Positions 4,662 to 33,112 of a DNA stretch of 35,216 nt are shown here, in pieces. The stretch is from an uncultured Thiocystis sp. Its GTDB lineage: Bacteria; Pseudomonadota; Gammaproteobacteria; Chromatiales; Chromatiaceae. Location: the NCBI RefSeq assembly GCF_903866365.1, contig NZ_CAIPNF010000002.1, positions 1 through 35,216 on the forward strand. Reading direction: 5' to 3'. Position numbers and translations under genes: made by a program. Position 1 is the stretch's first letter; the number at the start of each line of letters is the position of its first letter. The notes under the pieces are model-generated. The model searched no databases. It was given only the letters and a program-made list of their open reading frames with translations, and was not told the DNA's origin.

Positions 4662-5425
4662 CATTTCGACGCCAGGGTCACCTGGTTCTTGACATCGTCG
4701 ATCGTGATTCGGAAACGCCCCAGCACATTCATTCCAAGCAATGCGTGACCGCCGAGCCGCTGATCATCGATGAACGCGGCCGACACATCCGGAACGCGCG
4801 TGTCGCCGAGCCAGATCGCGGGCAGTGTCCCAACGCGCGCATCGACCGAACCATTCGCCGTTTGCACCTGCTGATCGCGCAGAGTGCTTACATCCAGTCC
4901 CAGGGACGCAACCAGCGACGCCGGCAGCACCACCTGATCGGCACCGGTATCGATCAGCAGAATCTGCTTGACTTGCTGCTCGTTCGGTCCTTCAAGGGTC
5001 AGGGTCAACAAATGCGACGGGCCCTTGCGCTGTGTCGGCAGGACGATTTCTTCATCATCGCTTGACTCGGCCGAGTCGGGATCCGGCGCATCGCTTTCGA
5101 CCACGAGAGGCGGTGGTACATAGGCGACCTTTTCGCCCAGGATGAGTACCCGTTCGATCCCGCCATCCGGCGTCTGAACAAGCACATAATCGAAGTTTTC
5201 CAAGAGCATGTGCAGACGCGCGAGCAATCCATCGCCCTCGGCACGCGCCATTGCGTCGACGGTCTGCTCGATGCCGCGCACCTCGAACCCATGCTCGGAC
5301 ATCAGCTTCTCCAGTTCGGTCGCGACCGGGACCGATGACACCGTCGCGGGCTCTTCCGCGGCAAAGGCGATACTCCAGACGATCAGTGAAGACGCGATCA
5401 GGATCCGGCGGAGATCAGACGGCAT
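4661..5425 (-). CDS. Exported retropepsin-like aspartic protease
   Basis: A 254-residue protein with an N-terminal signal peptide (MPSDLRRILIASSLIVWSIAFAAEE) and a C-terminal single-lobe aspartic protease domain. The catalytic motif is LLIDTGADQVVLP with the aspartate at residue 159, and the second family signature is GHALLGMNVLGRFRITID near the end. Proteins of this fold act as dimers. Between residues 30 and 140 is a linker rich in acidic residues (SDAPDPDSAESSDDEE). The start at 5425 is chosen over a TTG 15 bases upstream because a GGAG ribosome site lies nine bases before it. Substrate is unknown; it should act in the periplasm, which argues against it processing cytoplasmic S6. Confidence 0.85.
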   Translation of the reverse strand: MPSDLRRILIASSLIVWSIAFAAEEPATVSSVPVATELEKLMSEHGFEVRGIEQTVDAMARAEGDGLLARLHMLLENFDYVLVQTPDGGIERVLILGEKVAYVPPPLVVESDAPDPDSAESSDDEEIVLPTQRKGPSHLLTLTLEGPNEQQVKQILLIDTGADQVVLPASLVASLGLDVSTLRDQQVQTANGSVDARVGTLPAIWLGDTRVPDVSAAFIDDQRLGGHALLGMNVLGRFRITIDDVKNQVTLASK

Positions 5426-5628: not shown

Positions 5629-7587
5629 ATGCCCAACATCATCCGCGCCTTGTCCAGACAAGACCTCGCGGCCGCCTTTTTCGCCATCGTCGGCATCTAT
5701 CTTGCCAGCGTGGTTCCCTCCACCGAGATCGCCTGGGTCAGCGCCTTCCTGCTGCTCACGATCTTTCTGTTCGCCTTCGAGGTCGTCAGCGTCGACGTGG
5801 CGGCGATCACAGTGATGGTGTTGCTCGGACTGACGAGCTTCCTGGCGCCCTGGATGGGGCTGGAACAGGGGCTGGTTCCGGTCGAGCGACTGTTCGACGG
5901 CTTCTCCAGTAATGCCGTCATCTCCATCATCGCGGTCATGATCGTCGGCGCCGGATTGGACAAGACCGGTATCATGTCGCAGGTCGCGGGGTTCATCATG
6001 CGTATCGGCGGCTCCACCGAGACGCGCATCATCCCGCTGATCTCGGGCACGGTCGGCGCCATTTCCAGCTTCATGCAGAATGTCGGCGCCGCCGCGCTCT
6101 TTCTGCCGGTCGTCAGCCGCATCTCGGCGCGCACCGGACTGCCGCTCTCGCGTCTGCTGATGCCCATGGGTTTCTGCGCCATCCTCGGCGGCACCATCAC
6201 CATGGTCGGCTCCAGTCCGCTGATTCTGCTCAACGATCTGATTCTGACCTCGAATCAGGCGCTGCCGGATGGCGTGGCGTCGATGAAGACCTTTGAACTG
6301 TTCGATGTCACCCCGATCGGCCTTGCGCTGCTCGCCACCGGCATTGTCTATTTCGTGCTGGCCGGACGCTTCGTGCTTCCCGCGATTCGCAGCGACAAGC
6401 TCGAAGGCAGCGACACCAGCCAGTATTTCGCCGAAACCTATGGACTCAGCGATTTCGAGCTTGGGGAGTTCCGCGTCCCTGGAAAAAGTCATCTGATCGG
6501 GATGAGCGTCGACGAGCTGGAGCGCACCTGGAAGGTGCGGATTGTCGGGGTCGAAAAGGGCGACGGCCTGCGCTTCGGGGCCGACGGGATCGACCGTACC
6601 CTGGGCATTACGGCAGGCACCACGCTCGGCATGCTGGGCAACGCCGACTCGCTGCTGGATTTCAGCAACGCCAATCAGCTCATCCGCAAACGCGAACTGG
6701 AGCTGTTCGCCGAGGCCATGGCCCATACCAAGGCCGGTATCGCCGAGATCGTCATTCCGCCTGGCTCCAGTCTGATCGGCAAGACCGCGCGCGATGTCTG
6801 GCTGCGCAAGACCTATGGACTCTCGCTGCTCGCCATCAACCGCGGCGGCAACCAGATCACCTACAAGACCGGCGGCGTGCGCAACCTGCCTTTCGCCGCC
6901 GGCGACGCACTGGTCGTCCACACCACCTGGGCCGATCTCGCCCGGCTGGAGCAGGATCGCAACTTCGTGATCGTCACCACCGAGTATCCGCACGAGGAAC
7001 TGCGTCCGCATAAGGTTCCGGCCGCACTCTTCCTGTTCGTGCTGACGCTCGGGCTGATCCTCTTGACCGATCTCCGGCTCTCGATCGCGCTGCTCACCGG
7101 TGCCGTGGGCATGGTGCTGACCAGAGTGTTGTCGATCGAGGAAGCCTATAACGCCGTGAGCTGGAAAACCGTCTTCCTGCTGGCATCGCTCATCCCGCTC
7201 GGGCTCGCGGTCGAGTCTAGCGGAACCGCCGCCTGGATCGCCCAAGAGACGCTGACGGCCCTGGGCGACGTGCCCATCTGGGTAGTCCAGGCTGCATTGG
7301 CCGTGCTTGCCACCGCGTTCACGCTGGTGATGTCGAACGTGGGCGCCACCGTGCTGCTGGTGCCACTGGCCGTCAACATGGCCCTGGGGGTCGGCGCCAA
7401 CCCGGCGGTCTTCGCGCTGACCGTCGCGATCGCCACGTCCAACTCGTTTTTCATCCCCACGCATCAGGTGAATGCGCTGATCATGGGGCCGGGCGGTTAC
7501 CGCGTGACGGATTTCATGCGCGCCGGTGGCATCATGTCCATCCTCTTCCTCGTGGTCTCGCTGTTCATGTTGAACCTGGTGTTCTGA
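5629..7587 (+). CDS. SLC13/DASS-type anion permease with TrkA-C domains
   Basis: A 652-residue inner-membrane transporter. Two blocks of hydrophobic helices (about residues 15-245 and 455-652) flank a cytoplasmic region with two TrkA-C-like regulatory domains (about 280-360 and 375-450, the second starting PPGSSLIGKTARDVW). The signature SSFMQNVGAAALFLPV of the first half and VMSNVGATVLLVPLAVNMALG of the second half are the paired NTG/NVGA-type substrate and sodium loops of the divalent anion symporter family. Members move sulfate, thiosulfate-like anions or dicarboxylates with sodium. In a purple sulfur bacterium sulfate is a plausible substrate, but that is inference. An AGAGGG ribosome site lies before the ATG. 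Confidence 0.9.
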   Translation: MPNIIRALSRQDLAAAFFAIVGIYLASVVPSTEIAWVSAFLLLTIFLFAFEVVSVDVAAITVMVLLGLTSFLAPWMGLEQGLVPVERLFDGFSSNAVISIIAVMIVGAGLDKTGIMSQVAGFIMRIGGSTETRIIPLISGTVGAISSFMQNVGAAALFLPVVSRISARTGLPLSRLLMPMGFCAILGGTITMVGSSPLILLNDLILTSNQALPDGVASMKTFELFDVTPIGLALLATGIVYFVLAGRFVLPAIRSDKLEGSDTSQYFAETYGLSDFELGEFRVPGKSHLIGMSVDELERTWKVRIVGVEKGDGLRFGADGIDRTLGITAGTTLGMLGNADSLLDFSNANQLIRKRELELFAEAMAHTKAGIAEIVIPPGSSLIGKTARDVWLRKTYGLSLLAINRGGNQITYKTGGVRNLPFAAGDALVVHTTWADLARLEQDRNFVIVTTEYPHEELRPHKVPAALFLFVLTLGLILLTDLRLSIALLTGAVGMVLTRVLSIEEAYNAVSWKTVFLLASLIPLGLAVESSGTAAWIAQETLTALGDVPIWVVQAALAVLATAFTLVMSNVGATVLLVPLAVNMALGVGANPAVFALTVAIATSNSFFIPTHQVNALIMGPGGYRVTDFMRAGGIMSILFLVVSLFMLNLVF

Positions 7588-7611: not shown

Positions 7612-7636
7612 CGTGACACCGCTCCGCGGTGTCACG
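7612..7636. terminator. Strong 11-bp hairpin after the SLC13 permease gene
   Basis: CGTGACACCGC (7612-7622), loop TCC, and GCGGTGTCACG (7626-7636) form a perfect 11-bp stem 25 bases after the stop codon. It is the likely 3' end structure of the permease mRNA, though no T-run follows, so termination would be inefficient or Rho-assisted. It could also be an RNA-stabilising hairpin. Confidence 0.5.
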
Positions 7637-7778
7637 CATCCCGCTGCGCCGCGCGCCGCGAGCGGATTCGCAACCACTGACCATTGACTCATCATTCGAG
7701 ATCATGACGGGTGGCCGAACCTCCATCACCGCACCCCCATCAGTTTCTCCAAACCTGCCTGAACCATTGACTTAAACC

Positions 7779-7834
7779 TGCGTAGTCAGGCCATCCTGGC
7801 CTGATTTTCCAGGGCTGGAAGCCCTGGCTACGCA
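7779..7834. repeat. REPIN-like element: two inverted GTAG-hairpin (REP) units
   Basis: On the plus strand TGCGTAG (7779-7785) is followed at once by a perfect 8-bp hairpin TCAGGCCA-TCC-TGGCCTGA (7786-7804). After a TTTT spacer, a second perfect 8-bp hairpin CCAGGGCT-GGA-AGCCCTGG (7809-7827) is followed by CTACGCA (7828-7834), the exact reverse complement of TGCGTAG. Each strand therefore reads GTAG followed by a palindrome, which is the defining layout of REP units mobilised by REP-associated tyrosine transposases (RAYTs). The two units face each other as in a REPIN/BIME. No RAYT gene is in the window. The element ends 29 bases before the AAA ATPase start. Confidence 0.8.
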
Positions 7835-7862
7835 TCACCGATCGATGGTGAGCCTCCATCAC

Positions 7863-9095
7863 ATGCTGTCATTACTTAAAAAAAAGCCCACCTGCCCGAT
7901 TCACGGGTGCGAACTGACCCTGTCCCATCATGGCAAGAAATCCAATGTGGGCCATTATTTCATCGAGGCGGTCGGCGCGCCGCTGCTCTATTGTCCGCTG
8001 TGCTTTGAGAAGGGGCAGGACACCTCGGTCGAGGTCGAGCCAGCGGCATCGACCGCGTTTCTGAAAAAACTCGCCCGGCTGCTGGATGCGTCCGAGTTTC
8101 CCGGACTCCTCTCCAAACCCCGGATTCGCGTCGACTTCAATCCGTCCAAGACCCATCTGGAAACTCCGTCCGCGGAGCGGATCGGCCCACTCTACGACCT
8201 CAACGCTCGCAGCGACGCGGGGCCACGGACGGCAGAGGACGAGGAACCGCGTCTGGTTGGACTCGAACCGCTCGAACCACGCTATTCGCTAGAGCATCTC
8301 ATCCTCGACCCGGACAGCCTGGAGCGCATCCGCGAGGCCACCAACGTCCTCGTCTCGCAGGATCTGCTCTACGAGACCTGGAATCTGGGTTCGATCGCGC
8401 GCACCGGGCGGCGAGTGGCGCTGAATTTCTATGGCCCGCCCGGCACCGGCAAGACCCTGGCGGCGGACGCCATCGCCGATCTGCTCGGCAAGCGCATCCT
8501 GCGGATCAGCTATGCCGAACTGGAATCGAAATATGTCGGCGAGACGCCCAAGAACATCCAGGCGGCCTTCGCCAAGGCCACCGACACCGACGCCCTGCTG
8601 TTTTTCGACGAGGCCGATTCGATCCTGGGCAAGCGCCTGCTCAATGTCTCCCAGTCCGCCGACAACAGCATCAATGTCGCCCGGAGCACCACCCTGATCG
8701 AGCTTGATAACTTCAATGGCGCCGTGATCTTCGCCTCGAATCTGGTCCGCAACTACGACACCGCCTTTCTGCGCCGGATGCTGGCGCATGTGGAGTTTCG
8801 GCTCCCCGCCACCGAGCAACGTGAGATGATCTGGCGCGGCCACATTCCCCGGCAACTGCCGCTGGCGGACGATGTGGATTTCGCGACTCTGGCCCAGTCT
8901 TCGGAGGGCGCGGCGGGCGGCGATATTCAAAACGCGGTGCTGCTCGCGGCCTCCTATGCCTCGCTGCGCCTGGGGAATGCGCGAGTCGTCTCGCTCGCCG
9001 ATTTCAACCGCGCCATCCGTTTCATTCTGGAGGGGAAACGCCGGATTCTCGAAGGGAGCATGGGGGCAAACGAAGACCCTTTTGGATGGGCCTAA
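7863..9095 (+). CDS. AAA-family ATPase with N-terminal Cys-rich segment
   Basis: A protein of about 410 residues. The N-terminal 50 residues contain a CPIHGCEL pair and a CPLC pair, suggesting a small zinc ribbon. The AAA domain spans roughly residues 135-390: Walker A GPPGTGKT, pore-side AELESKYVGETPKNIQ, Walker B LLFFDEADS, the NYDTAFLRRM sensor/arginine region and the sensor-2 GGDIQNAVLLA. The closest general type is the single-ring classical AAA group (Vps4/FtsH-like core), with no protease domain. The start at 7863 is preferred because GGTGAG lies ten bases before it; an ATG at 7845 would add six residues. Client and partner are unknown. It stands alone behind a REPIN-like element. Confidence 0.88.
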   Translation: MLSLLKKKPTCPIHGCELTLSHHGKKSNVGHYFIEAVGAPLLYCPLCFEKGQDTSVEVEPAASTAFLKKLARLLDASEFPGLLSKPRIRVDFNPSKTHLETPSAERIGPLYDLNARSDAGPRTAEDEEPRLVGLEPLEPRYSLEHLILDPDSLERIREATNVLVSQDLLYETWNLGSIARTGRRVALNFYGPPGTGKTLAADAIADLLGKRILRISYAELESKYVGETPKNIQAAFAKATDTDALLFFDEADSILGKRLLNVSQSADNSINVARSTTLIELDNFNGAVIFASNLVRNYDTAFLRRMLAHVEFRLPATEQREMIWRGHIPRQLPLADDVDFATLAQSSEGAAGGDIQNAVLLAASYASLRLGNARVVSLADFNRAIRFILEGKRRILEGSMGANEDPFGWA

Positions 9096-31871: not shown

Positions 31872-31918
31872 CAGTTGGCAGTTGGCAGTTGGCAGTTGGC
31901 AGTTGGCAGTTGGCAGTT
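31872..31918. repeat. Tandem heptamer array (CAGTTGG), six full copies plus a partial
   Basis: Six exact copies of CAGTTGG run head to tail from 31872 to 31913, followed by a CAGTT remnant at 31914-31918. They fill nearly the whole gap between the convergent pppA and MFS genes. Each unit contains no palindrome. Similar heptamers are known as short tandem repeats in cyanobacteria and some other bacteria. Copy number is likely unstable through slippage. Confidence 0.9.
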
Positions 31919-33112
31919 TCATTTTGGACTTCGCTTGGCCAGTCGCAACATCAGCAGGCCGACCAGCAGCCAGCCGGTTATGGGTGCCCAGGTCAGGATC
32001 GGGACCAGCGCCGCCTGCTTGGGCCAGCCCGCCAGATTGACGCTGATGCGCAGGAAGGCCGCGGCGGCTAGCGTCGCAAAGAGGATGCCGGTGTAGGTCG
32101 CTACCCGGCCCGGTCGTCCGCAGTCCGCAGCCAGACCGAAGGCGCTCGCGAGGACCGCCCCCCAACCCAATCCGGCGATCGCATAACCGGCGATGGCCGC
32201 CTCGATCCCCGGCAGGCCGCTCACGCCCAGCCCGGCTCCGCCGACCAGACAGCCGATCGCGAAGACTCGCGCCACGCCCCAGCGTTGGCTGAGCGCGCCC
32301 GCGTTAAAGACCGCGAGACTGAAGCCGATCCAGAACACGGGCAACAGCCAGGGCAGCCACGCCGAATCGGTCTCCCGAAGAAAACGCGGACCGGCATTGA
32401 GAAACACCGCGATCTGAAAGGCGCTGGCGGCCAGCAGGAGCAGAGGCAGGAATCCCCACGCGGAAACCGTCGGCGGCGCGCTCTCGCGTGGGACGGCGGG
32501 GATCGGCCCCACCCTCCGTTCGGCGACCACCAGGGCGGCGGCGACCAACAGGAGCGTTAGGCTCGATACCGTAAAGGGCAGACGCGGATCGAGGCCGGTC
32601 ATCAGGGTGCCGAGATAAGGCGATACCGCCGCCGCGAGGCCCAGGCCGACCAGGGCGAGTCCGGCCAGTCGCGGTACCGCCGGTTTGGCGGCATGGCGGG
32701 CGAGCAGCCCGAAGAGCGGCGATCGCAGCGCGGACGAACTCACCACCCACAATGCCGTGATGCTCAGGAATACTCCAGGCCCGGCACCGAGCCCAGGCAG
32801 CCAGGGCAACGACAGAAAGGCAAGGCAGGAGAATGCACTGACCGCGATGACGACAGAACCGATCCGCGCATAGAGCCGGAAGGCGCGATCCGCCGCGAAG
32901 CCCGCCGCGATATCGAAACCCGCAAAGAGCACCTGATCGGCCAGCAGCACCCAGCCCGCCCAGCGTTTCTCGACACCGACGGACTCCAGCAATCCCGGCA
33001 GAAAAATGGCATAGAGGGTCCAGGTCGCCAGCAGGAAAAACTGCACGAACCCAAGATAGATCGCCAGACCGCTCAATGCGCTGGCGGGTTGACGGATTCC
33101 GGTCTCGTTCAT
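31919..33112 (-). CDS. Major facilitator superfamily transporter
   Basis: A 397-residue inner-membrane protein with about twelve hydrophobic segments in two halves joined by a polar loop near residues 190-215. The N-terminal half includes FVQFFLLATWTLYAIFLPGL and a charged loop after helix 2 (FAADRAFRLYARIG) in the position of the MFS motif A. Substrate is not predictable. Its ATG overlaps the stop of the transglutaminase-like gene by four bases, so both come from one minus-strand message. Confidence 0.88.
   Translation of the reverse strand: MNETGIRQPASALSGLAIYLGFVQFFLLATWTLYAIFLPGLLESVGVEKRWAGWVLLADQVLFAGFDIAAGFAADRAFRLYARIGSVVIAVSAFSCLAFLSLPWLPGLGAGPGVFLSITALWVVSSSALRSPLFGLLARHAAKPAVPRLAGLALVGLGLAAAVSPYLGTLMTGLDPRLPFTVSSLTLLLVAAALVVAERRVGPIPAVPRESAPPTVSAWGFLPLLLLAASAFQIAVFLNAGPRFLRETDSAWLPWLLPVFWIGFSLAVFNAGALSQRWGVARVFAIGCLVGGAGLGVSGLPGIEAAIAGYAIAGLGWGAVLASAFGLAADCGRPGRVATYTGILFATLAAAAFLRISVNLAGWPKQAALVPILTWAPITGWLLVGLLMLRLAKRSPK

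Follow-up and report, generated by a model that had tools for sequence, protein, structure and literature searches.

A GTAG REP doublet carried within a 123-bp MITE of an uncultured Thiocystis sp.

REP doublets are usually taken to be spread by RAYT transposases. Members of the IS200/IS605 family reportedly lack both TIRs and target duplications, according to the relevant section of PMC2817692. A MITE containing REP sequences is described, in the text of PMC5896051 devoted to it, from Coxiella burnetii. This element, QMITE2, is ∼190 bp long and is characterized by TIRs and direct repeats of 7-9 bp, and its short forms are presented as REP elements that were catalogued earlier as GTAG REPs. For Pseudomonas, the portion of PMC3733652 that deals with such units records the observation by Di Nocera and colleagues of degenerate GTAG units joined to unrelated stem-loops, together with TIRtrons, in which TIRs unrelated to REPs flank tyrosine transposase genes.

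Described here is a 56-base double hairpin located in a window of 35,216 nucleotides, by which is meant the whole stretch of DNA that was analysed. An earlier note, made from the letters alone, had taken it for a doublet of the REPIN form, moved by a RAYT. In our analysis the double hairpin is, with a probability of roughly 0.9, the interior of a non-autonomous MITE that spans positions 7730-7852, with the REP doublet riding inside and an IS4-like element as the presumed mover.

The hairpin module and its copies

The sequence of the module is TGCGTAG-[ TCAGGCCA-TCC-TGGCCTGA ]-TTTT-[ CCAGGGCT-GGA-AGCCCTGG ]-CTACGCA, such that two hairpins of 8 bp each are separated by TTTT. As single-stranded DNA it adopts a closed two-hairpin fold of -23.2 kcal/mol (z -7.94), and none of 200 shuffles folded equally well. 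The closed double hairpin with a 7-bp outer stem that had been proposed for these 56 bases was thus borne out. Likewise, sequence matching confirmed that GCGTAG lies outside each hairpin on its own strand. Taken alone, GCGTAG shows no enrichment across the window (7 matches versus 9.5 expected), and a search of the window against the Rfam RNA families gave no matches at the gathering score.

Read on their own strands, the two units are A, GCGTAG-T-CAGGCCA-TCC-TGGCCTG-A, and B, GCGTAG-C-CAGGGCT-TCC-AGCCCTG-G. They are built on one scaffold, differ by three compensatory pair changes, and have the TCC loop and the stem base in common. From the difference between the stems the earlier note had concluded that the element is a mosaic of two REP types, a conclusion that does not survive the paired changes, the common loop, and the pairing of A with B. 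Indeed, two unrelated REP types were rejected on the basis of the unit alignment and of the make-up of the doublets listed (68 of 269), every one of which, by reading, combines an A with a B. When the units were scored separately, a single B+B pair was encountered, namely a decayed copy (L116) that lies beyond safe placement by the 3-4-mismatch rule, along with eight units without a partner. Judged by their sequences, A and B are one REP family in two versions. Across 172 distinct copies the hairpin is closed at its outer end by T-A or C-G, and rarely by A-T, whereas the other pairs are nearly invariant. This low variation is not read as structural constraint because many of the loci were collected with the exact core pattern. 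The module displays the architecture of a GTAG REP doublet: a GTAG tag with a short palindrome, an inverted pair, and few copies in its own genome.

That genome comprises 5.5 Mb in 503 contigs. A search of it for the stems, which the earlier note had proposed as a check, demonstrated that the sequence occurs more than once. Contig C62 carries another perfect closed copy and C245 a decayed one, and there are weaker partial matches as well; the reversed control gave one match. The C62 copy has no recognisable TIR, and that on C245 has no clear duplication. With a pattern in which the three inner stem pairs were left free, the doublet was observed 269 times in 18 of 194 genomes of the family, the highest numbers per genome being 110, 71, and 44. 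The reversed control pattern was absent from all 194. No matches were obtained in 365 genomes from other families of the class or in viral contigs. At least 118 loci with the pattern were found in GTDB contigs, all of them from purple sulfur bacteria among the matches listed, where the hosts are Lamprocystis, Thiorhodococcus mannitoliphagus, Thiocystis violacea, Thiocapsa, Thiohalocapsa, Thiodictyon, and entries named Chromatiaceae bacterium or MAG. Membership in the Chromatiaceae was confirmed by look-up for Thiorhodococcus and Thiocystis; Lamprocystis, Thiocapsa, Thiohalocapsa, and Thiodictyon we take to belong there as well. In one genome (G127) the A/B doublet occurs in a third context, with a longer spacer and the common flanks TTACCGTGAAAGTCCCC (L104 and L105), of which there are five more copies (L280-L284).

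The longer unit and the copy in the window

When 55 distinct copies were inspected together with their flanks, most could be assigned to one of two longer kinds of element. The window copy is of type II, a class that starts with CTCAMCACCTATCRGTTT, ends with its inverse, and is 123-126 bp in length. Type I starts with GGCCTYGATCA..TTCCGGCCA, also ends with its inverse, and measures 124 bp in 77 of 102 copies. TIRs were recognised by a rule that allows up to six mismatches per end and 9 or 10 per pair. Under this rule 105 of the 172 distinct doublet copies have a full type I pair around them and 36 a full type II pair; among the remaining copies 19 have one TIR-like end, four are at contig edges, and eight have none. 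At 5,000 random places away from the core in the same loci, the rule returned four type I pairs, one type II pair, and 185 single ends. The full pairs thus greatly exceed what chance would give, although a portion of the 19 one-ended calls may be fortuitous.

The flanks of these elements are duplicated at fixed lengths. A perfect 8-bp duplication surrounds 47 of 102 type I copies, as compared to a mean of 0.54 and a maximum of 3 with permuted flanks, and perfect duplications at any other length from 4 to 12 are limited to 0-3 of the 102. For type II, perfect duplications of 9 bp are observed in 11 of 36 copies and of 10 bp in another 12, the corresponding values for permuted flanks being 0.36 (maximum 3) and 0.34 (maximum 4). 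Perfect duplications are absent from 55 of the 102 type I and 13 of the 36 type II copies. TIRs combined with duplications of fixed length are the marks of DDE-type transposition. The 105 type I and 36 type II copies have unrelated ends, and they contain one and the same A/B doublet, including its TGC/GCA extension.

The features of the window copy are listed in Table 1.

Table 1. Coordinates assigned to the element and its surroundings (position 1 is the first base of the window)
Feature	Position	Strand	Basis
Upstream neighbour: CitMHS-type transporter with TrkA_C domains	5629..7587	+	Pfam; same direction as ATPase
Left target-site duplication CCTCCATCAC	7720..7729		identical to 7853-7862; boundaries from alignment with relatives
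Whole element: 123-bp MITE, type II ends	7730..7852		alignment with 123-126-bp type II copies of relatives
Left TIR CGCACCCCCATCAGTTTC, diverged from consensus CTCAMCACCTATCRGTTT	7730..7747	+	related ends bound IS4-like transposase element
Left arm, TIR to hairpin module	7748..7778		partly conserved among type II copies
Hairpin module (GTAG REP doublet), 7-bp outer stem TGCGTAG/CTACGCA	7779..7834		fold z -7.9; doublet in 18 of 194 family genomes, 269 in total
REP unit A: GCGTAG + hairpin TCAGGCCA-TCC-TGGCCTGA	7780..7804	+	sequence, fold
REP unit B: GCGTAG + hairpin CCAGGGCT-TCC-AGCCCTGG	7809..7833	-	sequence, fold
Right TIR, reads CTCACCATCGATCGGTGA on the - strand	7835..7852	-	alignment with type II copies
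Right target-site duplication CCTCCATCAC	7853..7862		identical to 7720-7729
AAA ATPase gene, ATG 7863 the likely true start, immediately past right duplication	7863..9095	+	homolog N-termini; Pfam AAA

Several of the attributes of a MITE can be recognised in it. The target duplication has a fixed length, 10 bp in the window and, in 23 of the 36 type II copies, 9 or 10 bp without mismatch. TIRs are present, and those of the window copy are diverged. The unit is small, at 123 bp, and without coding capacity, the mechanical ORF of the ATPase beginning in its right end. Note that the position of the left tip may be off by one base, and a 124-bp element with a 9-bp duplication is equally possible. 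The two copies of CCTCCATCAC are the sole identical 10-mers at that spacing in the window; at a spacing one base longer there are three such pairs. The window copy passes the TIR recognition rule just at its limit, and it may be dead, given the divergence of its TIRs. No empty site for it was found among the ATPase homologs of the family genomes, and the DNA preceding those that reach the N-terminus does not lend itself to comparison.

The distance of 29 bases from the hairpins to the ATPase start, as given in the earlier note, holds for ATG 7863. The mechanical start at position 7845 falls inside the element, within the TIR, and the first six residues of that reading frame correspond to TIR and duplication sequence. 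Ten homologs were located in 95 other genomes of the family, eight of which reach the N-terminal part and are 64-78% identical. In seven of these eight the alignment begins at query residue 7 or 8, and in the remaining one at residue 3; ATG 7863 encodes residue 7. The gene has consequently been separated from its former leader by the insertion. The TIR end GGTGAG, positioned 10 bases before ATG 7863, could serve as a weak ribosome site. As RNA the element region folds well (z -2.98, with one of 200 shuffles as good), and promoter prediction called no promoter in the element. In read-through transcripts from the transporter gene a strong hairpin would be expected, with its end a short way ahead of the ATPase start, and an effect of the element on expression of the ATPase is possible.

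Two other repeats in the window were noted. Just past the transporter gene, at 7613-7635, lies a perfect 10-bp palindrome, GTGACACCGC-TCC-GCGGTGTCAC, also with a TCC loop, which may be a terminator or another repeat. At 31872-31920, between two ORFs, there are seven head-to-tail copies of CAGTTGG, the last of which is imperfect.

The candidate mover, the cargo, and alternative explanations

The type II end, at one mismatch or less, occurs in 7 of the 194 family genomes; its reversed control occurs in two other genomes, once each. In genome G101 (L346, 326-1518), TIRs related to those of type II bound an element of 1,193 bp with a perfect 10-bp duplication, GTGCTCCGGC, and an ORF of 369 amino acids. 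This ORF scores 34 bits against Pfam DDE_Tnp_1, for which the cut-off is 23, and 147.6 bits against the NCBIfam IS4 model, just under the cut-off of 152. The type II ends are accordingly held in common with an autonomous transposase element, as is characteristic of MITEs. A TIR pair was found around a transposase match in 13 distinct places, 10 of which show perfect 9- or 10-bp duplications. Eight of the 10 duplicated copies, in G132 and G031, represent a more distant subgroup with ends CTCATCACCTATCA and a transposase that is 56-58% identical. Transposase matches were obtained in 7 of 10 genomes searched, the exceptions being G142 and G167, which are type I genomes, and G122. G070, which has 44 doublets, contains one IS copy with a stop and with a MITE inside it (L371). 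In G147, which has a type II copy, the matches are weak and partial.

The genome of the window contains seven transposase matches, none of them intact in this 503-contig assembly. That on C41 has a stop and 57% identity, that on C389 is in three pieces of 78-90%, and those on C139 and C216 are partial. Pieces of the IS in this genome retain the ends CTTGCCACCTATCAGTTT and CTCACCACCGATCAGTTT. On the basis of the related ends, the 9-10-bp duplications, and these pieces with their ends, the most suitable reading of the window element is that of a MITE belonging to the IS4-like group. It would have been moved in trans by an IS4-like transposase of the type that survives here as broken or partial copies.

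For the type I TIR no autonomous element was found among the loci read. In G178 (L055, 989-2241) type I ends with a perfect 8-bp duplication surround a 120-amino acid frame of the IS200 type. This gene was rejected as the type I mover because it is nested in the interior and nothing like it is present in the other type I elements inspected. In the same genome (L311, 1322-2520) a gene for a PD-(D/E)XK (Rpn-type) nuclease is enclosed by type I ends that lie 1,199 bp from each other and have an 8-bp duplication with one mismatch. In this single case the gene may be either a passenger or the type I mover. The type I interiors at L134, L153, L157, L160, and L304 are other long palindromes (CACAGATGT, GACAGGATTAACAAGATT, and CACGGAGACACAAAGACACGG), repeats that occur in many environmental genomes.

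A second MITE family, one with unrelated ends and 8-bp duplications, also contains the doublet of the window element. With the same doublet inside two unrelated MITE families, it behaves as a transferable module. Its passage between chassis might have occurred by insertion of a REP into a MITE or by recombination at GTAG. The A/B doublet is present in 76 of 95 distinct type I insertions shorter than 330 bp with no more than one duplication mismatch. Of the 19 that lack it, 14 have an interior with an exact inverted repeat of 11 to 29 bp, which exceeds in length those of all 50 shuffles. Some cargo is common to several of the 14, and about six kinds can be distinguished by eye, including a GTAG palindrome, GTAGGGTCCGCTGTGCGGACC, and a pair of the GTAGGGTGG type. 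With respect to type II, genome G052, which is devoid of the A/B doublet, has two elements with type II ends and perfect 9-bp duplications (L340, 1501-1612, and L372, 3192-3316). Their interior is a different GTAG-tagged pair, GTAGGATGGG / ATAGGATGCG; the inverted repeats are no longer than those of shuffles, and the folds have z values of -4.2 and -3.5, with two hairpins in one of them.

GTAG also lies at positions 22-25 from the tip, at one end, in the five copies inspected of the closest IS subgroup, and at the same place in three of the four MITE right ends inspected; past this point the IS and MITE sequences part. No GTAG is found there at the other IS end or in the other subgroups. The location of GTAG at the point of divergence is suggestive of joining there, either by a RAYT-like step or by recombination. 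Tentatively, and with odds somewhat below even, REP doublets and other palindromes may represent swappable cargo of DDE mini-transposons, such that a given TIR chassis would accommodate many palindromes and a given palindrome several unrelated chassis, with much of the REP load of such genomes spread by DDE enzymes rather than by RAYTs and with exchange at or near GTAG.

The description in the earlier note of a REPIN form moved by a RAYT is correct in that the module is a repeated, inverted doublet of GTAG palindromes, but the mobile unit is longer and bears TIRs and duplications of 8 or 9-10 bp. Since such features are reportedly absent from the IS200/IS605 family, movement of the doublet as a REPIN by a RAYT is not supported. 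The 56-mer could still be a true REPIN, mobilised now or formerly by a RAYT (Y1 HUH), with its placement in MITEs secondary. Apart from the tags outside the hairpins, the inverted arrangement, and the conserved loop, this would be in keeping with an independently mobile module in two unrelated chassis, with GTAG where one IS end and the MITE diverge, and with the tandem B units described below. Y1_Tnp genes are, moreover, present in the genome of the window (10 matches) and in all 10 copy-bearing relatives searched. A Y1 gene flanked by the same palindromes, for which the earlier note had suggested a search, was not encountered in the loci read, however. None of 40 Y1 loci read, among them a minority of the relatives' matches, carries an A or B unit at three or fewer mismatches within ∼1.5 kb; the 40 are 10 plus 30 loci, drawn from the matches in this genome and in the relatives, and are not all distinct genes. 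A REPIN would be expected to end at its REPs, without TIRs or larger duplications, whereas 141 of the 172 copies lie in a full TIR pair and only eight are without any TIR-like end, such that the spreading unit is the one bounded by TIRs and duplications. Taken together, these observations make a true REPIN unlikely. In G139 (L029) a doublet does adjoin a Y1 gene, but this is because the gene is disrupted by the element, with one frame continuing into the TIR and the C-terminal portion located beyond the element. That copy has no clear duplication. In G070 (L056) a 132-bp type I end pair with a perfect 8-bp duplication, without the doublet, is situated between the two parts of a further Y1 gene. 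In G127 (L143, 1525-1620) B units form a direct tandem at a distance of 31 bp from one another, adjoining a type I end, and they read as growth of REP units inside a MITE.

Two further explanations do not invoke a RAYT. A role for the hairpins in terminating transcription or in RNA processing of the transporter/ATPase pair, for which they would have been retained, is improbable. One terminator-like site is called at 7785-7800 on the + strand, where 0.2 is expected, and the hairpins lie between two co-oriented genes in a region with the RNA fold mentioned above. Only four T residues follow the stem before the second hairpin, however, and the same module occurs at unrelated loci, including the inside of a Y1 gene, with the flanking duplication indicating insertion. 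An ordinary GTAG REP doublet whose flanks are similar through duplication of the locus or shared descent, rather than transposition, is hardly credible. The window and C245 copies do have flanks in common, but these stop at the TIR tips and differ beyond them, and the flanking bases are duplicated at fixed lengths. The MITE with a REP doublet inside remains the preferred reading.

Relation to known systems

The present locus provides a concrete test case for how REPs reach high copy number in genomes in which no cognate RAYT was seen. It also illustrates that the unit which actually moves can be overlooked when a REPIN is called from its core sequence only. A candidate transposase can now be named, and one of the two chassis carries other palindromes as well. 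A search of the open-access literature returned no title or abstract on one REP doublet in two unrelated TIR families. A MITE with a GTAG REP core has precedent; what is new is the occurrence of one REP doublet in two unrelated chassis, together with a likely transposase.

Like the MITEs of IS4-family insertion sequences, the window element has TIRs related to those of an IS4-like DDE element, duplications of 9-10 bp, a length of ∼120 bp, and no gene. It differs from them in its REP-doublet interior and in that, past the TIR, one end alone resembles the IS, up to GTAG. With the REPINs or BIMEs moved by RAYTs, as portrayed in the pertinent sections of PMC3116915, PMC2817692, and PMC6006769, it shares the inverted GTAG-tagged palindromes and the closed fold, and the presence of two unit versions in one genome is matched by the E. 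coli entry in the RAYT table. Unlike those elements as they are portrayed there, it is bounded by TIRs and target duplications, and no RAYT is associated with it in the loci read. TIRtrons, as outlined in PMC3733652, flank tyrosine transposase genes, whereas the ends observed here are those of a DDE element for type II or of a mover that was not found for type I. The account of QMITE2 in PMC5896051 is similar in that it, too, is of a MITE with a GTAG REP core, TIRs, and direct repeats. Relative to that account, the bacterium and the sequence are different, and the elements described here contain an A/B pair, which is housed in two unrelated TIR chassis, and have an IS4-like element with related ends.
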